This document shows positions 8,314-28,074 of a stretch of 28,669 nucleotides of DNA, piece after piece. A program made the translations under genes and the position numbers. Source of the DNA: Rhizorhapis sp. SPR117 (lineage in GTDB: Bacteria > Pseudomonadota > Alphaproteobacteria > Sphingomonadales > Sphingomonadaceae); assembly GCF_021742065.1 (NCBI RefSeq), contig NZ_JAKKIE010000047.1, forward strand, positions 1 to 28,669, given 5' to 3'. The notes beneath the pieces are model-generated. The model ran no database searches. It saw nothing but the letters and a program-made list of their open reading frames with translations, and had not been told where the DNA came from. The stretch's first letter is position 1. Each line of letters begins with the position of its first letter.

Positions 8314-11300
8314 TGCGGTTGCCGCATTTCTTCATCGACCGCCCGATTTTCGCGGCCGTCCTGTCGATCCTGATCGTGATTGCGGGAATGGTCGCCTATC
8401 CGATGTTGCCGGTCGGGCAATATCCTGAAATCGCCCCGCCCACAGTGGTCGTGTCAGCCACCTATCCCGGTGCGACAGCCGAAACGCTTTCCGAAACGGT
8501 GGCCGCCCCGCTGGAGGAGTCCATCAACGGCGTCGAGGACATGATTTATATGTCCTCATCCTCCACCGCTACCGGCGTTCTCAGTATCACCGTCACGTTC
8601 GCGCAGGGAACGGACGTCGATCAGGCGCAGGTGCTGGTGCAGAACCGGGTGGCGACCGCCGAACCGCGCCTGCCCCAAGAAGTGCGGCAGATCGGCGTCA
8701 CAGTCCGCAAGGATTCGCCCGACCTGCTCATGGTCGCAATGCTCTATTCCCCCGACAAGAGCCTTTCACAGCAATATATCTCCAACTATGCGACCTTGCA
8801 GATCAATGACCGGTTGGCGCGAATTCCCGGCGTGGGCGGTATTCGCAGCATCGGTGGCCGCGATTACGACATGCGCGTCTGGATCGATCCCGATCTCGCC
8901 GCCGAACGCAATTTGACTGTTGATGAAATTACCAGTGCGATCCGCGGGCAAAATATGCAGGTCGCTGCCGGCGCGGTCGGTCAGCCCCCCTTCAACACCG
9001 GCGGCACCGCATTCCAGCTTGGCGTGCGGGCGCAGGGGCGACTTTCGACGACCGACGAATTTGGTCAGATCATCGTCAAGCGAGACGATCAGGGGCGCAT
9101 GACACGCTTGCGTGATGTCGCCCGCATTGAACTTGGTGCGCAAGATTATAGCACCAACGCCTATTTCAACGGCGGTCCGGCTATTCCGGTCGTGGTCACG
9201 CAATCACCAGGTTCCAATGCGCTGGAAACGGCCGGGGCCGTAAAGCAGGAACTGGCGCGGCTGGCGGAGAATTTTCCATCCGGGCTTACCTATGAAATTC
9301 CTTATAGCCCTACCGAATATATCTCTGCGTCCATTGACGCGGTGAACCATACGCTGGTCGAGGCACTGATTCTTGTCAGTCTGGTGGTGCTGCTTTTCCT
9401 GCAAAGCTGGCGCGCGGCGATCATCCCCATTCTTGCCATCCCGGTTTCATTGGTCGGCAGCTTCGCCATGATGGCCGCCTTTGGCTTTTCGTTGAACAAT
9501 CTTTCCCTGTTCGGTCTGGTTCTGGCCATCGGCATTGTCGTCGATGACGCCATCGTCGTCGTCGAAAATGTCGAGCGGTTGATGGAGGAAGAGGGGCTTT
9601 CGCCGCTGGCCGCCGCGCACAAGACGATGGACGAAGTATCGGGCGCGCTGATTGCGATCGCGCTGGTGCTGTGCGGCGTTTTTATTCCCACAGCCTTTAT
9701 TCCGGGAATTTCCGGAGCCTTCTATAAGCAGTTCGCTCTCACCATTGTTGGCGCGACGGCAATTTCGGCTTTTGTTTCATTGACCCTGTCGCCCGCTCTG
9801 GCAGCGTTGATCCTGAAGCCCAAACAGGAACGTGAAATACCCGCTGGGTGGCATGGCTATCCCGTGCGATTTGCACGTGGGTTCAATCGCGGGTTTACCT
9901 GGCTTGCCGACCGTTATGGCCGGGTGACGGCGCGTACCGTTCGCATGCTGGGCATTGTTGGTCTGTGCTATTTATTGTTGCTGGCTTTTGCAGGGTGGCG
10001 ATTTACCCAGACGCCGACGGGATTCATACCGGCACAGGATCAGGGCTATCTGATCGCGGTCGTACAGATGCCGCCAGGTACGGCCCTGCAGCGGACCGAT
10101 GAAACCCTGCGGCAAGTGATTGCCACGGTGCAGAAAGACTCTGGCGTTCAAAGCACCGTCGCCTTTGGCGGGTTCGATGGATCCAGCTTCACCAATGCAT
10201 CCAACAGCGGCACCATTTTCGTGACACTGAAGCCGCATGGCGAGCGTTTGTCCGCCACTGAAATGACGAAGGAACTGGAAGGAAAGCTGTCGAAAATCAC
10301 CGCAGGAAGCGTTTTCATCATCGCGCCGCCACCCGTCCGCGGCCTTGGCACCGGCGGCGGGTATAAAATGATGATAGAGGACCGCGGCGGCGCAGGTTTT
10401 CGGGCACTGGAAGAGGCCGCCACCAAGATGATGATGGCGGCTAACCAGACCGAGGGGCTTACCTCTGTCTTTACCAGCTTCAATACAAAGACGCCGCGCC
10501 TTTACGCCGATATAAACCGGGAGAAGGCCGAGCAAATGGGCGTGCCCGTCGAAAATATCTTCGCCACGCTGGGCACCTATCTGGGGTCGAGTTATGTCAA
10601 CGACTTCAACTATCTTGGCCGCACCTATCGCGTGACGGCTCAGGCCGATGCGCCGCATCGCGATGATCCCGACGATATCGGCCGGCTGAAGACGCGCTCG
10701 GCGAGCGGCGCCATGGTTCCGCTGGCGGCTGTTCTGCGCCTGGACAATGACAGCGGGCCTTACCGCGTGGTGCGTTATAATCTCTATCCCTCCGCAGAGC
10801 TTCAAGGCGATACGGTGCGAGGCTATTCGAGCGGTCAGTCATTGGCTGCCATGGAAAAACTGGCGGAGGAGATCTTGCCGTTGGGCTTTACGTTTGAATG
10901 GACGGACATCGCCTTTCAGGAACAACAAGCCGGCAATACCGGGATGGTGGCGTTCGGTCTGGCCGTCATCTTCATCTTTCTGCTGCTTGCGGCGCAGTAT
11001 GAAAGTCTGGTGCTTCCCCTGGCTGTCATCCTGATTGTGCCGATGTGCCTGCTCGCGGCAATTCTGGGCGTCAATCTGATGGGGAGCGATAACAATATCC
11101 TGACCCAGATCGGCCTTGTCGTGCTGATCGGGCTGGCCGCGAAAAATGCGATCCTGATCGTTGAATTCGCGCGGCAGGGGGAAGAGGAAGGGCTGAGCCT
11201 GCGCGAAGCGGCGGAGCGCGCGGCGCACCAGCGTTTGCGGCCGATCCTGATGACGTCCATCGCCTTCATTCTGGGCGTGCTGCCGCTCGTCATTTCATCC

Positions 11301-16315: not shown

Positions 16316-16462
16316 GAGTTACGTTGCGTCAATTCTTTGGGCATAGCCTTTTCCTGATAGTTGCAGAACAGCAACAACAGGGTCGCAGAAGGTCCAGGCC
16401 CCATCCCGAAGAATGACGGCAAGAGGCCGGGCATGCTGTCCGGTGAGCATAGGGGAATTACC

Positions 16463-16651
16463 ATGACTGTTCTTAAGAATCTTTGGAATGATGAATCTGG
16501 CGCTTCGGCTGCCGAATATGCACTGATCCTGGCCATTGTCGGCACGGGCATCGCTGCGGCTGCTTTTGCCCTTGGTGGCGCCATCAGTGGTGCGATGAGC
16601 AGCGCTACATCCTGCATTGAAAATGGACCGACTGCTGGTAGCTGCTGGTAG
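16463..16651 (+). CDS. flp: Flp/Fap type IVb pilin precursor
   Basis: The 62-residue prepilin starts MTVLKNLWNDESG. The prepilin peptidase should cut after that Gly, leaving ASAAEYALILAIVGTG: Glu at position +5 followed by Tyr is the Flp hallmark, and a single hydrophobic helix follows. This is the main subunit of the pilus made by the downstream tad genes. AGGGG lies seven bases before the ATG; a longer frame starting at 16361 has no such site. The C-terminus holds two cysteines (SCIENGPTAGSC), which could close a disulphide loop. The last codons lie in a 10-bp tandem repeat. Confidence 0.93.
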   Translation: MTVLKNLWNDESGASAAEYALILAIVGTGIAAAAFALGGAISGAMSSATSCIENGPTAGSCW

Positions 16652-16656
16652 CTGCT
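16632..16656 (+). repeat. 10-bp tandem repeat (2.5 copies) at the pilin stop
   Basis: CTGCTGGTAG occurs at 16632-16641 and 16642-16651, followed by a partial CTGCT to 16656. It encodes the final AGSCW and the TAG stop of flp. Loss of one unit would end the protein one residue earlier at a TAA, and gain of a unit would leave it unchanged, so slippage here would be nearly neutral. Confidence 0.8.
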
Positions 16657-16667
16657 AAATCTACTCT

Positions 16668-16705
16668 GAAGCCCCTGCCGGGGCCCCGAACTCCGGCAGG
16701 GCTTC
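16668..16705 (+). terminator. GC-rich hairpin between flp and cpaB (partial terminator or RNA stabiliser)
   Basis: GAAGCCCCTGCCGG (16668-16681) pairs with CCGGCAGGGCTTC (16693-16705), with one unpaired base and a short loop. The downstream AAATTTACG is not a clean T-run, so termination should be incomplete. Such a hairpin after a pilin gene would allow much more pilin than assembly protein to be made from one promoter. Confidence 0.65.
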
Positions 16706-16749
16706 AAATTTACGAATGAAGACTTGGGCCATTGGGGGGAACCACGGCC

Positions 16750-17658
16750 ATGACGCAGACACGTTCACTCATCATCCTGGGCCTTGCAATATTGCTGGGT
16801 CTTGCCGCGGTATTCATCGCCAACAGCTATCTGACCGGCGTTGAAAAGAAACAGGCGGTGGTTCAGGAAGGGATGGTCAAAGTCGCCGTCGCGCGTGTGC
16901 CCCTGGAATATGGCATGCCGGTTACGGCGGATAAAATCCGCTTCGTCGACTGGCCGCGCAGTTCGATCCCCGAAGGGACGTTCAACAACGCAAACCAGTT
17001 GACCAGCCTGGGCAAGGCCCGCGTGGCGTTGCGCCCTGTGGCGGTCAACGAACCGATTTTGAAATCCAGATTATCGGGCGAGGGTGGACGCGCCAGCATC
17101 TCCGCCGTCCTGCGCCCTGAAATGCGCGCAACCGCCGTTCGCGTCAGTGACGTGTCCGCCGTGGGTGGCTTTGTCCTGCCCGGCGACAGTGTCGATGTGC
17201 TGATCACGCGCACTGAGGGTGAGAACAGCGGCCAGATCACCGACGTGCTGTTGCAGAATGTCCGCGTGATCGCGATCGACCTGGACGCCAACGACAATAC
17301 GAGCAACCCGAAGGTCGGCAAGACCGCGACGCTGGAAGTCAGCCAGGTGGATGCGCAAAAACTGGCGCTGGCGCAACAGATCGGCAGCCTGTCGCTGGTG
17401 CTGCGCAATGTCGCCGATCAGGATAATCCCGTCGTCGCCACGGTCGCGACCGATGACTTGCGCGATGGCGCTTATGTCGGGGCCTATTCAGGACCGCGTG
17501 CAGGCTATGCCTCCGCCGGATATACCGCGGGCTCGGTCACGCCGCGCTGGCGTCCCGCCCGACGGCGTGCGCCTTCGGTCCCCAAAACTGCCAAAGTGGA
17601 GATCGTCCGCGGTCTCACAGGTTCAAGCTATGAGGTAAAGCGCCATGCGGGTTTCTAA
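16750..17658 (+). CDS. cpaB: Flp pilus assembly protein CpaB (RcpC)
   Basis: The 302-residue protein starts MTQTRSLIILGLAILLGLAAVFIANSYL (described by its ends: a basic tip and one hydrophobic anchor). A SAF-type domain follows (VARVPLEYGMPVTADKIRF), then the RcpC/CpaB core with LRPEMRATAVRVSDVSAVGG, FVLPGDSVDVLITR and LLQNVRVIAID. The C-terminus is basic (RWRPARRRAPS). CpaB is a periplasmic partner of the secretin in Tad systems. The ATG at 16750 lies nine bases after GGGGGGA. The gene overlaps cpaC by 14 bases. Confidence 0.92.
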   Translation: MTQTRSLIILGLAILLGLAAVFIANSYLTGVEKKQAVVQEGMVKVAVARVPLEYGMPVTADKIRFVDWPRSSIPEGTFNNANQLTSLGKARVALRPVAVNEPILKSRLSGEGGRASISAVLRPEMRATAVRVSDVSAVGGFVLPGDSVDVLITRTEGENSGQITDVLLQNVRVIAIDLDANDNTSNPKVGKTATLEVSQVDAQKLALAQQIGSLSLVLRNVADQDNPVVATVATDDLRDGAYVGAYSGPRAGYASAGYTAGSVTPRWRPARRRAPSVPKTAKVEIVRGLTGSSYEVKRHAGF

Positions 17659-19162
17659 AGCCATCGCGCCGATGATGGCGCTGCTTCTCGCCGGGGTTGC
17701 AACGCCCCTGTCGGCTCAGGTCCATGTCGCCGCCGTTTCCGCCGATAACGCCATGCATGGCGGGCAACTGGACGTGCCGCTGAACAAGAGCCAGATCCTG
17801 AATGTCGACCGCGCCTTTACCAAGGCACTGGTCGGCAATGACGAGATCGCTGACGTCCTGCCCATGTCCAACCGCTCGCTTTATGTGCTGGGCAAGAAAA
17901 TGGGCACGACCAGCCTGACGCTGTATGACGGCAAGGGCAATTTGATCGCCGTTGTCGACGTGGCGGTGGGGCCGGATGTCGTGGGTTTGCGGCGGCAACT
18001 GTCCGAATTGATGCCCAGGGAGAAAATCGGCGCGCGCGTGTCCAATGACGCGGTCGTGCTGACCGGCGTCGTGTCGGCTGCACCCGTCATCGACCGCGCG
18101 GTGCAGGTCGCCCACACCTATGCGGGTGACAAGGTGGTCAACATGATGTCGCTGGGCGCATCGCAGCAAGTGATGCTGGAAGTGCGCTTTTCCGAAATGA
18201 GCCGCAGCGCGGCCAAGCAGATCGGGGTCAGCAACGCTTTTATCTCCAATGGCGGGACTTTTCAGGGCGGAACGGGTACTGGCGCACCCACAACCGCCTT
18301 GTTGACCAACAAGAATGGATCGCCGACAATCGATATCAGCGGCCTGTTGAACAGTTTCGGCATTGTATCGGGCAGCCTGAATATTGGTGACATCAACCTG
18401 TTCACAGCGCTGGACGCACTGGAACGCAAGGGCGTTGTCACCACGCTGGCCGAACCGACATTGATCGCGCTATCGGGCGAAACCGCGTCTTTCCTCGCGG
18501 GCGGGGAATTCCCCATTCCGGTGTCGCAGAGCAGCAGCGGTGGCGGCACAGATGGCGGCAACAACATCACCATAGAGTTCAAACCCTTCGGCGTGAGTCT
18601 GGGGTTCACGCCGACGGTGCTGGAGGATGGGGTCATCAACCTTGTGGTCGAGCCAGAGGTCAGCTCGATCGATCCTTCGGCATCGGTGACCATCAACGGC
18701 CTTGTCATTCCGGGATTGCAGACGCGCCGGGCCAGTACGACGCTGGAACTGCGCGATGGGCAATCGTTCGCCATTGCCGGGCTATTGCGCAAGGATTTTC
18801 AGGATACGGTGCGGCAATTCCCGATATTGGGTTCGATCCCGATCATCGGGTCGCTGTTCCGTTCTTCCGGTTTTCAGAAAAGCGAAACGGAACTTGTCAT
18901 CATCGTGACGCCGCGTCTGGTGCAGCCGGTGAAGGCGGACCAGATCGCCCTGCCGACCGACCGTGTGCTGCCGCCGCATGAGCTGGACCTGTTCCTGATG
19001 GGGCGGACGGACAAGGCGGTGGGCATCAACCCGCTCGACCCCAACGCCATGCCGCCCGAAGCGTCGAAAGCGCCCAGGGCAGCGCCTGCCGCCGCGCCGA
19101 CAGCCCCGGCAGAGGGTGAGCCTGCGACCGGCTTTACCGGCCCCAATGGCTATGAGCTTTAA
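17645..19162 (+). CDS. cpaC: Tad/Flp pilus outer-membrane secretin CpaC (RcpA)
   Basis: The 505-residue protein has a signal peptide ending in PLSAQ. It then has the pilus secretin N-terminal domain (LNKSQILNVDRAFTKALVGN, SLYVLGKKMGTTSLTLYD), a BON-like segment (RVSNDAVVLTGVVSAAPVIDRA) and the secretin core (VTTLAEPTLIALSGETASFLAGGEFPIPV, ending with the LFRSSGFQKSETELVIIVTPRLV block). It forms the outer-membrane ring through which the pilus emerges. The tail is rich in Ala and Pro and looks disordered. GAGGT lies upstream of the ATG, inside cpaB. Its TAA stop overlaps the ribosome-binding site of the next gene. Confidence 0.94.
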   Translation: MRVSKAIAPMMALLLAGVATPLSAQVHVAAVSADNAMHGGQLDVPLNKSQILNVDRAFTKALVGNDEIADVLPMSNRSLYVLGKKMGTTSLTLYDGKGNLIAVVDVAVGPDVVGLRRQLSELMPREKIGARVSNDAVVLTGVVSAAPVIDRAVQVAHTYAGDKVVNMMSLGASQQVMLEVRFSEMSRSAAKQIGVSNAFISNGGTFQGGTGTGAPTTALLTNKNGSPTIDISGLLNSFGIVSGSLNIGDINLFTALDALERKGVVTTLAEPTLIALSGETASFLAGGEFPIPVSQSSSGGGTDGGNNITIEFKPFGVSLGFTPTVLEDGVINLVVEPEVSSIDPSASVTINGLVIPGLQTRRASTTLELRDGQSFAIAGLLRKDFQDTVRQFPILGSIPIIGSLFRSSGFQKSETELVIIVTPRLVQPVKADQIALPTDRVLPPHELDLFLMGRTDKAVGINPLDPNAMPPEASKAPRAAPAAAPTAPAEGEPATGFTGPNGYEL

Positions 19163-19172
19163 GGAGATGATG

Positions 19173-19559
19173 ATGGGCAACATGCTAAAATCATTCCGTC
19201 ATTCCCGCGAAAGCGGGAATCCATCTCCTGAGCGCTCCGCTGGATACAATGGCGGGAGATGGATTCCCGCCTGCGCGGGAATGACGAAGGTGGGGATAGG
19301 CGCGGCCATCCTCGGCCTGTCCCTTTCCGCCTGCACACCCAATGATCCGACGCTGGGCGCGGCGGTCAAGCACAATTACGCATTGCAGGTAATCGACCCC
19401 GATCCGCAATATTCGGGTGAACCGATGGAAGGTTCATCAGGGGACAAGGCCGTGGCGGCCGTGGAACGCTATCGCACCGACAAGGTGAAAGCGCCCAAGG
19501 GCATCCGCACGACCAGCGGGATCAGTGGTGGCAGCGGTTCCGGCGGCGGATCGAATTAG
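19173..19559 (+). CDS. small Tad-locus lipoprotein with an in-frame palindromic repeat
   Basis: The frame encodes 128 residues. From the ATG at 19173 (AAGGAG six bases upstream) it reads MGNMLKSF, then about 30 residues translated from a palindromic repeat (including HSRESGNP and WIPACAGMT). A lipoprotein signal follows (KVGIGAAILGLSLSAC, lipobox LSAC), then a short, mostly polar mature part ending in a Gly/Ser-rich tail. The mature protein is only about 80 residues and does not look like the longer CpaD lipoprotein, but it occupies the cpaD position. An ATG at 19281, supplied by the repeat itself, would give a normal signal peptide (MTKVGIGAAIL). It is either an extended leader or a re-set start. 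Confidence 0.72.
   Translation: MGNMLKSFRHSRESGNPSPERSAGYNGGRWIPACAGMTKVGIGAAILGLSLSACTPNDPTLGAAVKHNYALQVIDPDPQYSGEPMEGSSGDKAVAAVERYRTDKVKAPKGIRTTSGISGGSGSGGGSN
19198..19285. repeat. 88-bp nested palindromic repeat inside a coding frame
   Basis: The arms 19198-19228 (beginning GTCATTCCCGCG) and 19255-19285 (ending CGCGGGAATGAC) are inverted copies that differ by a few bases in the inner loops. Each arm is itself a small hairpin (ATTCCCGC facing GCGGGAAT). The middle, about 26 bases, contains TGAGCGCTCCGCTGG. This is the form of dispersed palindromic elements whose translations (HSRESGNP, WIPACAGMT) recur in many proteobacterial genomes. Here it sits in frame in the lipoprotein gene. Confidence 0.85.
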
Positions 19560-19569
19560 GAGACATGAC

Positions 19570-21105
19570 ATGTCCGGCGGATTGTTTGGCAAGTTACTGA
19601 AGGCCCAACGGGCCGCAGTCGCGCCGACGGTCGGCCTGTCGCTTTTCGCGCTGATCGGTGTCGGCGGCATCGCGTTCGACTATGCACGGCTGGCGTCGAT
19701 GGACAGCGAGTTGCAGAATGCGGCAGATCAGGCGGCTTTGGCAGCGGCGACGCAGTTGGATGGGCAGACGGACGCCCGTGCGCACGCCACTAGTGCGGCG
19801 CAATCACTGATCGCCAATCTGACGCGTATGTCCAATGATGGTGGGACGACTGCCATCACAGTCCCTACGATCATCTTCTATGTTGATAAGCCCAAGACTA
19901 CGGTGGCAACGACTGACGCCGACGCTAATTTTGTGCTGGTGACAGTGGGTGCGCGTCAGGCATTTTATGCCCTGACGCCAGTGGTCGCAGCCTTTTCGTC
20001 AGGCAATATTGCTGCAAGTGCCTATGCAGGTGTTGGTTCGGCAATATGCAAGGTGCCGCCGGTCATGATCTGCAATCCCAGCGAGCCTACCAATAACACC
20101 AATCCGGATTATGATTTCGATGCGAATGCGTTGAGTGGGGCGGGCCTGAAGTTGATTACAGGCAATGCTACCGCACCGGGAAATTTCGGTTTCCTGGAAA
20201 CAGGTTTTGGCAGCGGTGCGGCCAATCTGTCGCGTGCACTGGGGTATAACACGCCACCGGGAGAATGCCTGCCGACTGACGGTGTAACGACGAAGCCGGG
20301 TCTTAATGCTTCGGTGATGGACGCGCTTAACACGCGTTTTGATCTGGATACCAACGGGTCATCCACCTGTCCTTCAGGCGGTACCTGTTCACCCTCTCGC
20401 AACGTCCGCAAGGATTTGGTCAAGGGTAATAATTGTGGCACTTCCGGCAATCAGGGATGGCAAGAGTCGCCCAATCCCTATCGTCCCACGACAGCTGCGC
20501 CCCTGACTTCTGGCTACCCTGACATCATGGGACACCCGCGTGATCTGTGCCACGCGATCAGTAACAGTCTGTCGGATAGTATTGCTGCAGGGTGTACATC
20601 GGGCGGCGGCCGCATTGGTAATGGGCAATGGGACCGGGATGCCTATTTTCGGGTCAATTACGGATGGACAAGTGCTTCCACCTGGCAGACGAATACGAGT
20701 CTTCCTGCCAATGCGACACGATATCAGGTTTATGAATGGGAGTTGGCGCATACAGCAACCAGCGATAAGCATCAGGTGATTGGCTCAAAGGATGGCTATA
20801 GCTATCCTGTATGTCGCGGAACTGGCATCACGCCCGGCGGCACAAATGTCGATCGGCGCAGGATTTCGGCAGCGGTACTCAATTGCGAGGCGCTTGGTCT
20901 CAATGGTCAGGAATCGAACGTTCCGGTTCTCAAATGGGTGGATTTGTTCCTTGTTGAGCCATCCTATCAGCGTCGGCGCGGAAGTACGGTCGTTACCGAG
21001 GCGACCGACGTCTATGCAGAACTGATCGGTGAAACCAGCAGCGGCACGGCGGGCAATACCGCAGGGCAAGTGGTACGGCGCGATGTGCCGTATTTGATCG
21101 AGTGA
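19570..21105 (+). CDS. TadG-like Flp pilus assembly protein
   Basis: The 511-residue protein starts with the putative Tad-like Flp pilus-assembly domain: a hydrophobic helix APTVGLSLFALIGVGGIAFD, then MDSELQNAADQAALAAATQL. A long periplasmic or surface part follows with about twelve cysteines (for example KVPPVMICNPSEP, CPSGGTCSP, DLCHAIS, CRGTG), so disulphide bonds are likely. No von Willebrand factor A motif (DxSxS) is visible, unlike full TadG proteins. It is probably a minor pilin-like or anchoring component. The ATG at 19570 follows GGAG by seven bases. GC content is lower than in cpaE/cpaF. Confidence 0.82.
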   Translation: MSGGLFGKLLKAQRAAVAPTVGLSLFALIGVGGIAFDYARLASMDSELQNAADQAALAAATQLDGQTDARAHATSAAQSLIANLTRMSNDGGTTAITVPTIIFYVDKPKTTVATTDADANFVLVTVGARQAFYALTPVVAAFSSGNIAASAYAGVGSAICKVPPVMICNPSEPTNNTNPDYDFDANALSGAGLKLITGNATAPGNFGFLETGFGSGAANLSRALGYNTPPGECLPTDGVTTKPGLNASVMDALNTRFDLDTNGSSTCPSGGTCSPSRNVRKDLVKGNNCGTSGNQGWQESPNPYRPTTAAPLTSGYPDIMGHPRDLCHAISNSLSDSIAAGCTSGGGRIGNGQWDRDAYFRVNYGWTSASTWQTNTSLPANATRYQVYEWELAHTATSDKHQVIGSKDGYSYPVCRGTGITPGGTNVDRRRISAAVLNCEALGLNGQESNVPVLKWVDLFLVEPSYQRRRGSTVVTEATDVYAELIGETSSGTAGNTAGQVVRRDVPYLIE

Positions 21106-21611
21106 GCTTTATGCGTGCTCCTTATCTCACCTCGATTATATCTTGTTCGAAAGCGAGTTCCGCTGCCGAGATGGCTTTGGTGACGCCATTGCTGATCATC
21201 CTGATGTTTGGCGCGTTTGAATTGGGCAATTATTTTTTAAGCGAGCATGTGGTGGTGAAGTCGGTTCGCGACGGTGCACGTTATGCCTCGCGGCAGGGAT
21301 TTTCCAATTTTACCTGTCCGAGTACCATCTCGTCCGGGGCTGTAGCCAATATTCAGAATGTAACTCGCACCGGAAAGGTTGCCGGAGGTTCAGCACGTCT
21401 GGCGGGGTGGACGAATAATGCGACCGTGACGGTAGCACTCACCTGTACCGCAATCGGCAGCTATTCCGGCATTTATAAAGGGATGACAAACATACCGGTT
21501 GTGACGGTGTCCGCGACCGTTCCCTATAACTCCCTGTTCAACAGTCTTGGCTTTAGCAGCAGTTCACTCTCGCTGAATGCTGAGTCCCAGTCAGCGGTCA
21601 TGGGGATATGA
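21102..21611 (+). CDS. TadE-like pseudopilin
   Basis: The 169-residue protein has the TadE domain near its start: SSAAEMALVTPLLIILMFGAFELGNYF, a prepilin-like Ala-Glu before one hydrophobic helix, then a periplasmic part (VVVKSVRDGARYASRQG). TadE-type proteins are processed by the prepilin peptidase like Flp and act as minor pseudopilins. The start is uncertain: a GTG at 21102 overlaps the previous stop (GTGA), while the ATG at 21111 would drop three residues. The stop overlaps the next gene by four bases. The helix region is AT-rich (about 40% GC). Confidence 0.85.
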   Translation: MSFMRAPYLTSIISCSKASSAAEMALVTPLLIILMFGAFELGNYFLSEHVVVKSVRDGARYASRQGFSNFTCPSTISSGAVANIQNVTRTGKVAGGSARLAGWTNNATVTVALTCTAIGSYSGIYKGMTNIPVVTVSATVPYNSLFNSLGFSSSSLSLNAESQSAVMGI

Positions 21612-22231
21612 AGGCGCGTATCTTCCCTCTGGGCCGTGACGACAGGGCCGGGACAGCCGCCGAATTTGCGCTTGTGCTGCCATTGTTGCTGATATTTTTG
21701 CTTGGCATACTGGACATTGGTCGCCTGATGTGGACCTGGAATCGTGCGGAGAAGGCGACGCAGATGGGTGTGCGTTATGCCGTTGCGACCGACATGGTGC
21801 CGGCTGGTCTTGCCAGCTACAGCTTTACCACCAGCGGAGGCATTCCTCAGGGTGATCCAATCCCGGAAACTGCTTTTGGCGGTGCCACATGCCAATCGCC
21901 TTCGGGAACCGCGACATGTGCGTGCAATACCGGGGCCACCTGCCCATCGCTTGGAACGGCGGATAATACCGCCTTCAACAATATCGTGAACCGGATGCGT
22001 CTTTTTCTGCCGGAACTTTCGGCAAGCAAAGTTACCGTTGAATATGGCTACTCAGGTTTAGGCTACGCGGGCGATCCCAATGGGTCGGATGTTTCGCCAC
22101 TGGTTACCGTACGCATACGGAATATGACGTTTCAACCAATCACCCTTATCCTGTTCAACTCATCGATCACCTTGCCCAGTTTCAGCGCCGCACTGACGCT
22201 TGAAGACGGGCAAGGCAATGTTTCAAACTGA
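21608..22231 (+). CDS. second TadE-like pseudopilin
   Basis: The 207-residue protein has a TadE domain: GTAAEFALVLPLLLIFLLGILDIGR, again Ala-Glu before a hydrophobic helix, then TWNRAEKATQMGVRYAVA. The mature part has a short cysteine-rich loop (CQSPSGTATCACNTGATC). The ATG overlaps the previous stop as ATGA, so translation is coupled. With its neighbour it makes a pair of minor pseudopilins (TadE/TadF-like), thought to aid pilus initiation. Confidence 0.85.
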   Translation: MKARIFPLGRDDRAGTAAEFALVLPLLLIFLLGILDIGRLMWTWNRAEKATQMGVRYAVATDMVPAGLASYSFTTSGGIPQGDPIPETAFGGATCQSPSGTATCACNTGATCPSLGTADNTAFNNIVNRMRLFLPELSASKVTVEYGYSGLGYAGDPNGSDVSPLVTVRIRNMTFQPITLILFNSSITLPSFSAALTLEDGQGNVSN

Positions 22232-22245
22232 AGGAATGCTACGCC

Positions 22246-23451
22246 GTGGGAATTGTCATGAAAGCTGATGGACCGGCCGGGGACTGGATCCTGAATGTGG
22301 GTGAGAATTGCGTGCATCTGATCCTGTCAGAGGCCGAGATCGCGGCGGCGGACATGATTGTTGGCGATGTGGCGGGGTTTTCGGTGGCGCTGACGATGCT
22401 TTCGACCGGAACGCCGGTGCCCACGCAACTGTTGGCCAAGGCGAAGGCCGCCGTGGTGGAGGTGGAGCCGGGGCTTGAGACCTCGATGAAGCGGCTGGCG
22501 ACGTTGCGGGCGGACTATCCCGACTTGCCGTTGATCGCCGCGATACGCGATGCGGAAATTCCGCTGGTCCGTGCGCTGTTGCGCAGCGGGATCGACGATG
22601 TCATCGCTTTGCCGCTGGTGGCGGACGACCTGACGGCGGTGCTGACCGAAACGAAGGAAAACATTGCCCAGGCCGCCGAATTGCAGGTGAAGTCGGGCAA
22701 GCTGGTTTCCGTCATCAAGAGCGTCGGCGGTGTTGGCGCAACGACACTGGCAACGCAGGTGGCGAGCATGGAGGCGCGGCTGGGGCGGGAAAGCGGCGAG
22801 CAGGTGTGCCTGTTCGATATGGACCTGCAATTTGGCAATGCGACGACGTTCCTTGGCATGGCATCGCCCTTGTCGCTTTCCGACCTGCTGGAAGCGGGAA
22901 ACCGAGTGGATGCCGAACTGTTGCGGTCGGTCACGATGGTAACGCCCAGCGGCCTGCACCTGGTAGCCGCTCCGGACGAGATTTTTCCGATCGAGGCCGT
23001 CAATTCCGAACAAATCTATCGGATTATCGATCTGGCCACGCGGGAATTCGATACGGTTTGGCTGGACTTGCCGGGCAACTGGACCAACTGGTCGCTGTCG
23101 CTGGTCGCGCGGTCGCAGGTCGTATTGCTGGTGGTCGAAATGACCATCCCCAGCCTGCGTCAGGCCCGGCGGCAACTTGCGCTGTTGAGCAGTCAGGGCA
23201 TTGCCGGCAGCCATATCCAGATCGTTGCCAACCGCGTGGAAAAGAAGCTGTTCCGTTCTATCGGGCTGGATGAGGCGCAGGAAGCGATTGGCCATCCCAT
23301 CGCCTTTACCATCGCCAACGATTTCCCGCTGGTCAACGCGGCGCTCGATCAGGGCGTGCTGATCGACGATCTGAAACACAAGAGCAAGGTTTCGAAGGAT
23401 TTTGGCGTCATCGTCGATGGCTGCAAGGCATTATTGAAGGGCGGAGACTGA
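22246..23451 (+). CDS. cpaE: pilus assembly protein CpaE (ParA/MinD-like localisation protein)
   Basis: The 401-residue protein has an N-terminal receiver-like domain (about residues 20-130, PLIAAIRDAEIPLVRALLRSG) and a C-terminal ParA/MinD-like domain with VIKSVGGVGATTLATQ (about 156-171), VCLFDMDLQFGN and VWLDLP. The Walker lysine is replaced by Ala (GGVGATT), as is common in CpaE, so it probably binds but may not turn over ATP normally. CpaE places the pilus machine at the cell pole in Caulobacter. Start is uncertain: GTG at 22246 is ten bases from AAGGA, while ATG at 22258 follows GGGA by six bases. Confidence 0.9.
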   Translation: MGIVMKADGPAGDWILNVGENCVHLILSEAEIAAADMIVGDVAGFSVALTMLSTGTPVPTQLLAKAKAAVVEVEPGLETSMKRLATLRADYPDLPLIAAIRDAEIPLVRALLRSGIDDVIALPLVADDLTAVLTETKENIAQAAELQVKSGKLVSVIKSVGGVGATTLATQVASMEARLGRESGEQVCLFDMDLQFGNATTFLGMASPLSLSDLLEAGNRVDAELLRSVTMVTPSGLHLVAAPDEIFPIEAVNSEQIYRIIDLATREFDTVWLDLPGNWTNWSLSLVARSQVVLLVVEMTIPSLRQARRQLALLSSQGIAGSHIQIVANRVEKKLFRSIGLDEAQEAIGHPIAFTIANDFPLVNAALDQGVLIDDLKHKSKVSKDFGVIVDGCKALLKGGD

Positions 23452-23454
23452 TCC

Positions 23455-24834
23455 ATGTGGCAGATCAACAAAAGCGGCCCGTTAAGAAAATTCGCATCGG
23501 ATGCCGATCGCGTCAGCACGCTCGACGGCAGGGCGGCCAACGGCATCGATGAGGCAGCCGAGGAACGCAACACCAATTTGAAGGTCGAACTGCACAAACG
23601 ATTGCTGGACCTTATCAACCTGTCCGCGCTTGACACCATGTCGCGTCCGCAGGTCGAAACCGAGGTGGGCGAGATCGTCCATGAGCAGCTTGCGCTGCAA
23701 AAACATGCGCTCAACCATGAGGAGCGCAAGCGGCTGGTGTCCGATGTGCTGGATGAGCTGTTGGGTCTTGGTCCGCTCGAACCCTTGCTGAAAGATCACA
23801 GCATCACCGATATTCTGGTGAACACGCATGATCAGGTCTTTGTCGAACGCGGCGGCCGGTTGGTGGAAACCCCGACGCGGTTCAAGGATGAACGGCATTT
23901 GCTGCGCATCATTCAAAAGATCGTAGGGGCGGTGGGACGTCGCATCGATGAATCCTCGCCCTATGTCGACGCGCGCCTCGCCGACGGGTCGCGCATCAAC
24001 GCGATCATTCCGCCGCTGGCCGTCGATGGCGCACTGCTGTCCATCCGCAAATTCGCCAAGGTGCCGATCAGCATGGCGCGCCTGACCGAATTGCACAGCG
24101 TGCCCGCGCAAATGGCGCAAGTGCTGGAAGCCGTGGTTGCGGCGCGGCGCAACATCCTGATTTCCGGCGGTACGGGTTCAGGCAAGACGACGCTGCTCAA
24201 TGCCATGTCGGCCTATGTCGACGATGGCGAGCGCATCGTGACCATCGAGGATTCGGCAGAACTGCAATTACAGCAGCGCCACGTTGCCCGTCTTGAAACC
24301 CGCCCGGCCAATATCGAGGGCAAGGGCGAAGTGACGCAGCGCGATCTGGTGAAGAACGCATTGCGTATGCGCCCCGATCGCATCATCGTCGGCGAAGTGC
24401 GCGCCGGTGAAGCGTTCGACATGTTGCAGGCGATGAACACCGGCCATGACGGATCGATGACGACGGTACACGCCAATACGCCACGCGATGCTCTGTCGCG
24501 CATCGAACAGATGATCGGCATGAGCGGCATCGAAATCTCTCCTCGTTCAGCCCGCGGCCAGATCGCTTCGGCGCTCAATGTCGTGGTGCAGGTGGGGCGG
24601 CTGGCCGATGGCCGCCGCAAATTGCTGAGCCTGTCGGAAATCACCGGCATGGAAGGTGAGGTCATCACCATGCAGGAAATATTCCGCTTCCGCATGACGG
24701 GCAGATCAGAGGACGGAATGGTGCTCGGCCATTTCGAAGCGACGGGCATCAGGCCCAAATTCATGAGCGAACTGGCGGATCGGGGTATTTCCCTGCCTGT
24801 TGAACTGTTCCGGCCCGACGCAAGGATCGAATGA
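23455..24834 (+). CDS. cpaF: Tad pilus assembly ATPase CpaF (TadA)
   Basis: The 459-residue type II/IV secretion ATPase has the Walker A motif ISGGTGSGKTTLLNAM (about residues 236-251), the Asp box DDGERIVTIEDSAELQL, Walker B at RPDRIIVGEVRAGE (about 306-319) and the His box TGHDGSMTTVHANTPRDALSRIE. It drives pilus extension (and in Tad systems also retraction) from the cytoplasmic side of the inner membrane. GGAG precedes the ATG by eight bases. The end overlaps tadB by four bases. Confidence 0.96.
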   Translation: MWQINKSGPLRKFASDADRVSTLDGRAANGIDEAAEERNTNLKVELHKRLLDLINLSALDTMSRPQVETEVGEIVHEQLALQKHALNHEERKRLVSDVLDELLGLGPLEPLLKDHSITDILVNTHDQVFVERGGRLVETPTRFKDERHLLRIIQKIVGAVGRRIDESSPYVDARLADGSRINAIIPPLAVDGALLSIRKFAKVPISMARLTELHSVPAQMAQVLEAVVAARRNILISGGTGSGKTTLLNAMSAYVDDGERIVTIEDSAELQLQQRHVARLETRPANIEGKGEVTQRDLVKNALRMRPDRIIVGEVRAGEAFDMLQAMNTGHDGSMTTVHANTPRDALSRIEQMIGMSGIEISPRSARGQIASALNVVVQVGRLADGRRKLLSLSEITGMEGEVITMQEIFRFRMTGRSEDGMVLGHFEATGIRPKFMSELADRGISLPVELFRPDARIE

Positions 24835-25835
24835 TGAACCCGGATTATATCCGTTTCCTGCTGCTCGTTCTGGTTTTTGCCGCCACCATGTTGGCGGTCG
24901 AAGGGCTGGTGAGCTGGATCGGCAACAGGCAGGGCGTAGGCCGTGCAATCAACAAGCGGTTGCAGATGATCGCCAGCGGCTACGAACGGGGGGCCATATT
25001 ATCCAGGCTCCGCCGGGACACGGGCGATGATCTGTTCCTTTCGATGGGCGTTATTGGACAGTTCGGTATAAAGATCGAGCGCATGTTGCACGCCACGGGT
25101 ATCGGCATTCCGGCGCGTGTGGTGTTGATCGGCATGATTGCGGGGACGTTGTTCGTTTTCTTTCTGACGATCCTGCTGGCGGCGCTTTCGGGTTACAGTG
25201 TCAATCTGGGTCTGATCCTGATGGTCGGCGCCTTTGCTTTCAGCATCGGCATTGCCTTGCCGATGATGATATTGGCGCGGCTGGGTCAGCGTCGGCGCAA
25301 GAAAATTCAGGAGCAGTTCCCGGTGGCGCTGGACGTTTTTGTGCGCGGCCTGCGCGCGGGGCACCCGATCGCCGCCGCGCTGGACCTGTTGACTGTCGAA
25401 ATGCAGGACCCGATCGGCACGGAATTCGGCATTGTCGTGGATGAAGTCACCTATGGTGCGGAATTGCGCGATGCATTGCAGCGCATGGCCGACCGCTGGG
25501 GACTGGAAGACATGCACATGTTCGTCGTCTGCCTGTCGGTGCAAAGCGAAACGGGAGGCAATCTGGCGGAAATCCTGGAAAATCTTTCCGGTGTGATCCG
25601 TGAACGGGCCAGTCTGTTCATGAAGGTGCGCGCCTTGAGTTCCGAGGGCCGGATGACCGCCGTGATCCTGACCGCGCTACCCGTACTGGCGTTTACCGGC
25701 TTGTTCCTTTTGAACCCGAAATTCTATCTGGACGTCGCGGCCGATCCCGTTTTCATCATCGGGTTTACCGGTTTGGTGGGGCTCTATGTGATTGGTTTCA
25801 TCACCATTCGCCGCATGATAGATTTGAAGGTGTAG
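24831..25835 (+). CDS. tadB: Tad pilus inner-membrane platform protein TadB
   Basis: The 334-residue protein has an N-terminal hydrophobic segment (FLLLVLVFAATMLAVEGLVSWI), two more in the middle (LIGMIAGTLFVFFLTILLAAL and a following one), the type II secretion F domain (FPVALDVFVRGLRAGHPIAAAL, VQSETGGNLAEILENLS) and two C-terminal spans. It pairs with TadC as the platform that CpaF turns. The ATG overlaps the cpaF stop (ATGATGA). Confidence 0.93.
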   Translation: MMNPDYIRFLLLVLVFAATMLAVEGLVSWIGNRQGVGRAINKRLQMIASGYERGAILSRLRRDTGDDLFLSMGVIGQFGIKIERMLHATGIGIPARVVLIGMIAGTLFVFFLTILLAALSGYSVNLGLILMVGAFAFSIGIALPMMILARLGQRRRKKIQEQFPVALDVFVRGLRAGHPIAAALDLLTVEMQDPIGTEFGIVVDEVTYGAELRDALQRMADRWGLEDMHMFVVCLSVQSETGGNLAEILENLSGVIRERASLFMKVRALSSEGRMTAVILTALPVLAFTGLFLLNPKFYLDVAADPVFIIGFTGLVGLYVIGFITIRRMIDLKV

Positions 25836-25838
25836 GCC

Positions 25839-26810
25839 ATGTTCGATATTCCACTGACAGGCATACCCCGTCTGGCCTTCCTCATCATCGTCTTCCTGGT
25901 GGTGGTGATGGCTGTGGTTGTGATCAACGGTTTGGTCGCCAATCGCGTCGCTGTTCGCCGTCGGCTGGACACGATCGCTCATGCAGGCGAGCCGGCGCTG
26001 CTTCAGGGCGGATCGTTGCGGACGCAGAAAAGCAACAGTGCCTGGGTAAAGCTGATCGACCAGATCGAAAAGCGCGGCATATCGCTGGTCGATACCAATC
26101 AGGAAAGCCTGCGCGTCAAAATGCTCGCGGCGGGCTATACTTCGAAAGAGGCTCCGCGCTTTTTCACATTGATCCGGCTGGTCATGACATTGCTTTTGCC
26201 AGGCATATTTCTGACCTTCAGCATGCTCAGCTCTGAACCGCCCAGCGTGATGAAGCTTTATATCTTCGGCGCAGCGCTTGCCTGCTTTGGCCTTTACGCA
26301 CCCAATCTGTTCATTTCGGCGAAAACGGCGCGGCGGCAGGAAGAAGTCGTCAACGGTTTTCCCGATGCGCTGGACCTGATGCTGGTTTGCGTCGAAGCGG
26401 GTCTAGGCCTGGAGGCCGCATTCGACCGGGTGGGGCGGGAAATGTCGTTGTCGCACCCGTTGGTGGCCGACATGCTTGGCACGGTCGTGCTTGAACTGCG
26501 CGCGGGGCGTTCGCGGGAGGAGGCCCTGCGCCGTATGGCGGACCGTATTCAGGTCGATGAGATCCGGGCCTTTGCGACCCTGCTGATCCAGTCGGAAAAA
26601 CTGGGATCGAGCGTGGGCCAGACGTTGCGCGTCTATGCCGCTGAAATGCGGGAAAAGCGTCGTTTGCGTGCGGAGGAAAAGGCGCACCGCCTGCCGGTGC
26701 TGCTCTCCATTCCGCTTGTGACGTGCATGTTGCCGGTGATGATCGGGGTGTTGATGCTGCCTGCGGTGATCCGCGTCATCCGTGTCTTGTTGCCGGCCAT
26801 GGCGAATTAG
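25839..26810 (+). CDS. tadC: Tad pilus inner-membrane platform protein TadC
   Basis: The 323-residue protein has the same layout as TadB: an N-terminal span (LAFLIIVFLVVVMAVVVING), two central spans and a type II secretion F domain (FPDALDLMLVCVEAGLGLEAAF, LIQSEKLGSSVGQTLRVYA) with C-terminal spans near the end. It starts three bases after tadB and follows it in the usual cpa/tad order. Confidence 0.93.
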   Translation: MFDIPLTGIPRLAFLIIVFLVVVMAVVVINGLVANRVAVRRRLDTIAHAGEPALLQGGSLRTQKSNSAWVKLIDQIEKRGISLVDTNQESLRVKMLAAGYTSKEAPRFFTLIRLVMTLLLPGIFLTFSMLSSEPPSVMKLYIFGAALACFGLYAPNLFISAKTARRQEEVVNGFPDALDLMLVCVEAGLGLEAAFDRVGREMSLSHPLVADMLGTVVLELRAGRSREEALRRMADRIQVDEIRAFATLLIQSEKLGSSVGQTLRVYAAEMREKRRLRAEEKAHRLPVLLSIPLVTCMLPVMIGVLMLPAVIRVIRVLLPAMAN

Positions 26811-26832
26811 AAGAAACGAGGGGGGAATGAGC

Positions 26833-28074
26833 ATGAAAGCTGGACTGATGGGAGCGTCCCTGATGGTGGCGCTGGTCGGCTGTTCCTCGCAACATGCCGA
26901 ATTGCAGATCAAGCCGATTGGCAAAGAGCAGGCAATGTCGGGGAATGAAGCGCTGGCGAAAGCCGAATTGCTGCTTTCGCGCGGGGAATATGCCCTTGCC
27001 ATCGATGCCTATCGCAAAGCCGTCCGATATGATCCGGCCAACGCAGCAGCGTATAATGGGCTGGCGGTCAGTTATGATCAGTTGGGCCGCCATGACCTGA
27101 GCCGTCGTTACTATGAACTGGCGTTGGCGCGGGCGCCAAGGGAAGGCAAATATTACCGCAATCTTGCACGCTCGCTGGAGAGCCAAGGGCGGCGGGATGA
27201 AGCGAAAATGGTGCTGGCGCAGATGACGGCAGCCGAAAAGGGGCTGGCACTCGCAACGCCTGCCCCATCGGCCCGACCTTTGCATGCGTTGGCCGATCTT
27301 GCCAAGGGCGGGATTGCCACCGTCACCGACGCGGCGGCGGACATGATCGGGCCGCGCCTGGAACGATTGTCGATGGGCGAAATGTTGCTGTCCACCGAAA
27401 AGGATGGTGCTGCGCGTCATGAAAAGCCCCGGATGGCGGGCCATTCGATCACGGTTCCGATTCCCGCGGTTCCGGCGCGTCCGGCCGTGGTGGAATTGGC
27501 AAGCAGCAGCCCGATTGGACATTCGATAACTGTCGAGATTCCTCCTGCGGAGCCAATTTCGGCACCCGAAGAAGCCGGAGTGCGGCATGCTGAGGCAGCC
27601 GTTGATGTGCCGCTTGCCACGTTGGATTCCGTTCAGCCTGTTCGACCGGAAGGCGGCATTATGCTTGCGGCGGCGGCAATGGACCCGGAGGCGCTTCTTG
27701 CCATGGCTGTGCAGCCTGTGCCTCAGGCCGCGCAAGATCCGGCCACCGAGAAAACGACAGAGTTTGCCTCTGCATGTGATGTGTCCATTCACGCGGGGTT
27801 GATGACGGAATATGATACTGCCCCGTCGGGAGATGCGACCCTGTTGGTTTTCACGGGCGATTTCGCGCCCATGCGCCTGGGGAGCAGTGGCTTGGCTATC
27901 GATTTGCCGTTGCTGTATCCGGCGTCATCCAATTTGCCCCGCCAGCGCAATGTGGTTTTCGCCAGTGCGGCGGGAACAGGATGCAACGTTCAGATGGCCG
28001 ATGCTCCGCCATCCTTTGATCCATCGTTCAGCAGCCTGTGGCGTGATTGGCGCGATGAGGGCGGAACCGCATGA
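26833..28074 (+). CDS. TPR lipoprotein of the Tad locus (TadD-like) with an unrecognised C-terminal domain
   Basis: The 413-residue protein begins MKAGLMGASLMVALVGC, a lipoprotein signal. Residues about 35-145 carry tetratricopeptide helices (ALAKAELLLSRGEYALAIDAY, AYNGLAVSYDQLGRHDLSRRYYELAL), the TadD feature. A Pro/Ala-rich linker contains GHSITVPIP (about residue 203) and GHSITVEIP (about 229). A final domain (about residues 315-413) has two cysteines (ACDVS, GTGCNV) and no family I recognise. TadD proteins help the secretin reach the outer membrane. I chose the ATG at 26833, seven bases from GAGGGGGG; the ATG at 26827 is too close to it. Confidence 0.82.
   Translation: MKAGLMGASLMVALVGCSSQHAELQIKPIGKEQAMSGNEALAKAELLLSRGEYALAIDAYRKAVRYDPANAAAYNGLAVSYDQLGRHDLSRRYYELALARAPREGKYYRNLARSLESQGRRDEAKMVLAQMTAAEKGLALATPAPSARPLHALADLAKGGIATVTDAAADMIGPRLERLSMGEMLLSTEKDGAARHEKPRMAGHSITVPIPAVPARPAVVELASSSPIGHSITVEIPPAEPISAPEEAGVRHAEAAVDVPLATLDSVQPVRPEGGIMLAAAAMDPEALLAMAVQPVPQAAQDPATEKTTEFASACDVSIHAGLMTEYDTAPSGDATLLVFTGDFAPMRLGSSGLAIDLPLLYPASSNLPRQRNVVFASAAGTGCNVQMADAPPSFDPSFSSLWRDWRDEGGTA

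Follow-up and report, generated by a model that had tools for sequence, protein, structure and literature searches.

REPs of the CGTC-1 class, as described in the accessible text of Di Nocera et al. 2013 (PMC3733652), carry a CGTC tag, an AT-initial stem of 8 bp, a loop of 4 nt and a CCA tail, form inverted pairs, are dispersed, and have been reported from sphingomonads, with intragenic copies also reported; the class is said there to include dRS3 of Neisseria and RPE-6 of Rickettsia conorii. The element described here is alike in tag, stem, loop, tail and inverted pairing, with dispersed matches in related genomes, and differs in recurring in one gene and in its place, the n-region of a lipoprotein signal. 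RPEs, too, are palindromic repeats in frame within genes, and according to the same paper RPE-1 copies at the NH2 ends of R. conorii proteins are expressed in vivo; RPEs differ from the present case in host group and in the genes concerned, and in that the residues added here would go with the leader. In recB of Xanthomonas campestris and X. oryzae, different REPs occupy approximately the same site of one gene (PMC3733652, accessible text), whereas here it is leader genes in which repeats recur, those of an unrelated family among them (homologue P0167; FlgI of genome G003). MITEs, according to the accessible text of PMC10969869, are likewise small non-coding elements able to fuse in frame with genes; for our element, the divergence of the signal region in the REP-free relative allows no clean target duplication to be read. 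Intragenic REPs and RPEs are known, and the accessible text of PMC3733652 reports intragenic REPs in several species, which does not bear out the view of an earlier note on this DNA that in-coding insertions come mainly from Rickettsia. No link between REPs and cleaved leaders was found in that text, and a literature search that reached few subscription papers found none between REPs and leader peptides; within this scope the leader pattern, recognized post hoc, is new to us.

A REP pair in the leader of a short Tad lipoprotein gene

The analysed DNA (the window, the whole stretch of 28,669 nt from Rhizorhapis sp. SPR117) contains a Tad pilus cluster in which a short lipoprotein gene lies between cpaC, encoding the secretin (stop codon at 19160-19162), and a TadG-like gene (Table 1). 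The motif TAAGG(G)AG at this gene is the same in two relatives, R. suberifaciens DSM 7465 (L001) and a MAG contig (L002). From each of four ATGs (19167, 19170, 19173 and 19182) the frame runs uninterrupted across the repeat and ends with the stop codon at 19557-19559. A simple hydropathy window combined with a motif search finds a positively charged n-region, a hydrophobic core and a lipobox cysteine. Pfam gives no match for this short lipoprotein, and the CpaD profile TIGR02522 matches it weakly and at the profile's end only (positions 154-197 of 198), scoring 16.4 bits where the curated cut-off is 94.45; it may be a reduced CpaD.

Table 1 Features of the lipoprotein gene and its surroundings in the window
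Feature	Positions	Strand	Remarks
Tad pilus cluster holding the lipoprotein gene	16361..28074	+	Pfam matches for 9 of 10 proteins scanned; lipoprotein without match
GGAG, likely ribosome-binding site	19163..19166	+	Directly after the cpaC stop
Native start and 8-codon leader MGNMLKSF ahead of the repeat	19173..19196	+	Further ATGs at 19167, 19170 and 19182
First REP	19197..19223	+	CGTC tag, stem ATTCCCGC/GCGGGAAT, loop GAAA, CCA tail
Stretch between the REPs	19224..19259	+	Outer parts pair mutually
Second REP, opposite direction	19260..19286	-	Tag reads GACG on the + strand
In-frame ATG from the repeat, rival start codon	19281..19283	+	No ribosome-binding site seen
Lys, hydrophobic core and lipobox (LSA, then Cys)	19287..19331	+	Lipoprotein signal
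Mature part of the short lipoprotein, Cys onward	19332..19556	+	Identity to relatives taken over 61 residues

The palindrome that the earlier note had placed at 19198..19285 (88 bp) is real and extends one base further at each end, so that the whole element spans 90 bp (19197-19286). Its two 32-nt arms (19197-19228 and 19255-19286) are 94% complementary and spaced 26 nt apart, and the RNA of 19140-19320 folds at -93.2 kcal/mol, compared with -64.65 on average for shuffled sequences (sd 4.55; z -6.27), none of 200 shuffles folding as low. With up to three mismatches, ATTCCCGCGNNNGCGGGAAT matches the window five times, against 0.47 expected by chance; four of these matches are the element's two half-sites on both strands and the fifth is a 3-mismatch site at 11165. 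The element is a REP pair in inverted orientation, with CGTC at 19197-19200 and GACG at 19283-19286 as outward tags, AT-initial 8-bp stems (ATTCCCGC-GAAA-GCGGGAAT and ATTCCCGC-CTGC-GCGGGAAT), and CCA at 19221-19223 and TGG at 19260-19262 as tails. On these sequence features it fits the CGTC-1 class as the text of PMC3733652 describes it. No Rfam family reached its gathering score anywhere in the window.

The supposition that this palindrome is a dispersed repeat is supported by related genomes: dispersed matches occur in 14 of 17 sphingomonad genomes. Searched with its own copy, R. suberifaciens (G001) gives 52 matches over both strands. With regard to the CGTC-1 trait that no transposase gene adjoins the repeats, matches to Y1_Tnp were found in 4 of the 17 genomes, none of them G001 or G002, a genome-level count that disregards position relative to the repeats. 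The sequence AAGGTGGGG that follows the repeat was considered as part of the element and rejected, as the flanks of other R. suberifaciens REPs differ. A megablast search with 17600-21000 gave no match among 72,556 plasmid records that would point to a plasmid origin, and of the 23 stretches of viral contigs that fit a pattern, none codes for a relative.

Presence and absence of the repeat among homologues

The closest relative found, L002 (CpaC 92% and mature lipoprotein 88.5% identical, the latter over 61 residues), has no repeat at its lipoprotein gene, despite 26 matches elsewhere in its genome. By contrast, in R. suberifaciens DSM 7465 (CpaC 80% and mature lipoprotein 82.0% identical, again over 61 residues) a REP pair occupies the same place between similar flanks, and the frame is open. 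The repeat of the window resembles an RPE-like in-frame insertion in that it lies within an open frame and is absent from an orthologue. The signal region of L002 is too different for a clean empty site or a clean target duplication to be read. The DNA evidence for the repeat at this gene consists of the window and L001, and the other repeat-bearing homologues were judged from their peptides.

We read the N-terminal 60 residues by eye in 190 proteins, namely that of the window and 189 listed homologues (the best 120 of 132 matches and the best 120 of 1016), and found a REP-derived front in ten, including the window's. Among these proteins, the segment is not conserved as protein sequence in distant orthologues. 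A polar, repeat-derived stretch ahead of the signal, which the earlier note had called unusual for export, recurs in R. suberifaciens and in nine other homologues of this gene, and such repeats are found also in the FliP, FlgI and GspG leaders of relatives (see below). One homologue, P0167, bears a different and unrelated palindrome at the same place (HPEPVEG...LRQAQPER). The half-site of this second repeat, CTGAGCYTGTCGAAGG, is present in 13 of the 17 genomes, the pattern read backwards in none of the 17; 1 of 14 genomes in the genus of G012 matched P0167. In the family-level set, 99 of 397 genomes gave 100 matches to the lipoprotein, and among the 90 of these N-termini read by eye the REP was seen in R. 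suberifaciens only. The order-level sample yielded matches in 40 of 396 genomes, mostly as match coordinates; that of G601 begins at model position 5 and contains a stop. A protein search with the repeat peptide returned three matches, one of them P0004, and was uninformative.

A tree built from 37 mature parts, which are short, needs six changes of the REP label, at least two of them forced by well-supported branches; the count of six may be too high, since five rows taken without their upstream part were scored as REP-free. P0005 has the repeat and the near-identical P0018 does not, and the mature parts of P0004 and P0007 are identical up to their ends, with repeats that are unlike. P0021 is closely related to the R. 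suberifaciens protein but is a different protein. As side observations, P0006 and P0014 carry two REP-like peptides in tandem, and in P0005, P0006, P0013 and P0014 the REP is followed by short unit repeats of (A/D)GMTK(V)G.

Translation start and competing explanations

In the reading that we favour, with a probability of about 0.6, the native ATG serves as start, the repeat is translated in frame, and the insertion persists because the leader that holds it is discarded, leaving the mature lipoprotein unchanged. Specifically, ribosomes would start at the native ATG after GGAG, the 30 extra residues would lengthen the positively charged n-region, and the protein would still be exported, with signal peptidase II removing the whole leader and the mature lipoprotein equal to the repeat-free version. 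A REP inside a gene would usually be harmful, but an in-frame copy in a cleaved leader, placed after the start and ahead of the core, would only extend the n-region, and such leader insertions would therefore survive and recur. All 12 leaders examined keep a net positive charge, the hydrophobic core and the lipobox.

Two start codons can be envisioned for this gene. The repeat could itself supply the start, ATG 19281 being used alone or together with the native one, in which case the rest of the repeat would be untranslated leader RNA. This ATG is in frame and gives MTKVGIGAAILGLSLSAC, whose 18 residues ahead of the cysteine resemble the fronts of REP-free homologues (15-24 residues); in the protein records P0002, P0015 and P0021 the annotated start is the repeat's Met, a REP ATG is apparently the start in FliP of G010 and G014 and in PrmC of G006, and the accessible text of PMC3733652 considers most NH2-terminal REPs possibly extragenic. 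We nevertheless regard a repeat-supplied start as rather unlikely, and less likely here than the native one. The native ATG lies 6 nt after GGAG and has a predicted opening energy of 10.5 kcal/mol, whereas no ribosome-binding site precedes ATG 19281, which a strong hairpin encloses at an opening cost of 36.2 kcal/mol; the corresponding values are 9.0 versus 30.5 kcal/mol in L001 and 13.3 versus 13.4 kcal/mol in the REP-free L002. The native ribosome-binding site and start are retained in the window as they are in L002, and the nine other REP-bearing homologues are in frame from an upstream Met. Judged from the peptides, P0005, P0007 and P0012 read the left half of the repeat in another frame and regain the frame by its end, and P0011 has a repeat shortened in frame. 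That such unlike repeats are still in frame suggests that the frame is kept, an argument limited by the preference of protein databases for in-frame cases and by the fact that 16 of 22 REP-pair orientations leave this frame open. A binomial test assuming one-third per frame (7e-4 for 11 of 14; 4e-3 for 11 of 16), in which the group of P0021 was counted loosely, was discarded as proof, since gene calling is biased towards in-frame cases and the sequences tested are relatives of one another.

Two further explanations concern the gene as a whole. Misassembly at the repeat, or a decaying gene whose lipoprotein no longer works, is the least probable of all. Many homologues come from short metagenome contigs, in which repeats can mislead assembly; against this, the frame, core, lipobox and mature part are all intact in the window, and R. 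suberifaciens DSM 7465, a named strain, shows the same arrangement. It is also improbable, if slightly less so, that the repeat is retained as an RNA hairpin tuning the expression or stability of the Tad transcript, with its position in the frame incidental. The strong hairpin (z -6.27) does lie inside an operon, and RNA roles for REPs have been proposed (PMC3733652, accessible text), but the sister contig L002 lacks the repeat, and the same place is held by different repeat families, as in P0167, which argues that no particular sequence is kept.

REPs in other cleaved leaders

Around the listed REP matches, 87 loci reduced to 78 distinct places (G001, 28; S. chlorophenolicum G014, 20; S. fuliginis G010, 16; S. 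bisphenolivorans G006, 12; G005, 2), a sample that leaves out G002 and most of G005. A coding-like frame starts right after a REP at 39 strand-places; of these junction genes, 26 were run against Pfam, 24 with a match, and the remainder were named by likeness. Eight encode proteins with cleaved leaders (FliP 3, FlgI 2, GspG 3), all of them open through the REP and with no ATG between the REP and the hydrophobic core. By contrast, 29 of the 31 other junction genes have an in-frame ATG no more than 23 codons after the REP, the exceptions being a Mur ligase that contains the REP (L216, G014) and PrmC of G006 (L243), which seems to use the REP's ATG. Fisher p values for this contrast are 7.3e-7 and, on a stricter count of genes read from an upstream start (6 of 8, setting aside FliP of G010 and G014, versus 1 of 31), 5.7e-5, with the grouping set after the data had been seen and with orthologues that are non-independent. 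A family-level Fisher test was discarded, as it included two genes chosen by eye and relied on other families counted by hand.

In-frame ATGs also occur within these repeats. Five of the six leader genes counted as upstream-start have one in the second REP half (L198, L211, L218, L221 and L234, the last being GspG of G006, also covered by L268), and L198, L211 and L218 have in addition a GTG or TTG after the REP; no well-spaced ribosome-binding site was seen for any of these internal or after-REP starts. The probability given above for read-through, and our confidence in the general leader reading below, were set with these ATGs in mind. Two genes of G001, those for FliP (L148) and for a multihaem cytochrome (L147, found by eye; it has CxxCH motifs and, at 1e-8, no Pfam match), are the only ones without any ATG from the repeat up to the core, and in both an ATG start must therefore precede the REP. 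REPs also lie inside proteins, as in L195, which we take to be NuoF/FdsB-like. The junction scan passed over the lipoprotein gene itself (L139), L147 and the polymerase L140, and since the scan for internal cases missed L140, internal REPs are undercounted. In L140 (981-3089), a REP pair lies in frame inside the DnaE-type polymerase of R. suberifaciens, between the PHP and polymerase domains; REPs in DnaE2 genes of other species are described in the accessible text of PMC3733652.

Orthologues of these leader genes were sought in the 17 genomes. GspG was matched in 15 genomes, with a REP in the leader of G014, G006, G010 and G009 and a remnant, judged by eye, in G007. For FlgI (16 matched, 14 N-termini read), G010 and G014 carry a REP and G003 the second repeat type (L287, half-sites checked), and no repeat was seen in the remaining eleven N-termini read. 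For FliP (17 matched, 15 N-termini read), REPs are present in G014 and G010, a degenerate one in G001 and, by eye, a right half in G006. REP-free and REP-bearing orthologues share the same start in FlgI, in Sphingobium GspG and, comparing G001 with G002, in FliP, and in FlgI and GspG of relatives the native start is retained ahead of the REP. In FliP of G010 and G014 (L222 and L210) the REP closely follows the upstream gene, and from the sequence its own ATG is likely the start; a repeat-supplied start thus seems to occur too. In PrmC (L243), likewise, the REP's ATG looks like the start codon.

The lipoprotein case would be one instance of a wider tolerance of leaders for in-frame repeats. More generally, cleaved leaders of the Sec, lipoprotein and prepilin types might form a safe harbour for palindromic repeats, which unrelated families would enter and leave repeatedly, leaders being rebuilt from mobile DNA while mature proteins remain unchanged and the export machinery accepts long and odd n-regions; we advance this generalization tentatively, at somewhat less than even odds. 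If true, it would explain where repeats survive inside genes and provide one route of fast leader change, and it would warn annotators that the real start may precede a repeat. It would also offer natural test cases for how long or odd the front of a signal peptide can be, and make testable a question left open in the accessible text of PMC3733652, whether NH2-terminal REPs are translated or misannotated.

Some leaders show further repetitive structure. The GspG leaders L269, L270, L271 and L277 contain tandem units of RRSAEHGF(T/M)..., which include the GF of the prepilin cleavage site, ahead of the true GFTLVEL. By eye, seemingly other repeat types are present in GspG of G003 and G004 (L273 and L272) and in FliP of G012 and G011 (L261 and L262), and L273 has one variant half-site of the second repeat.
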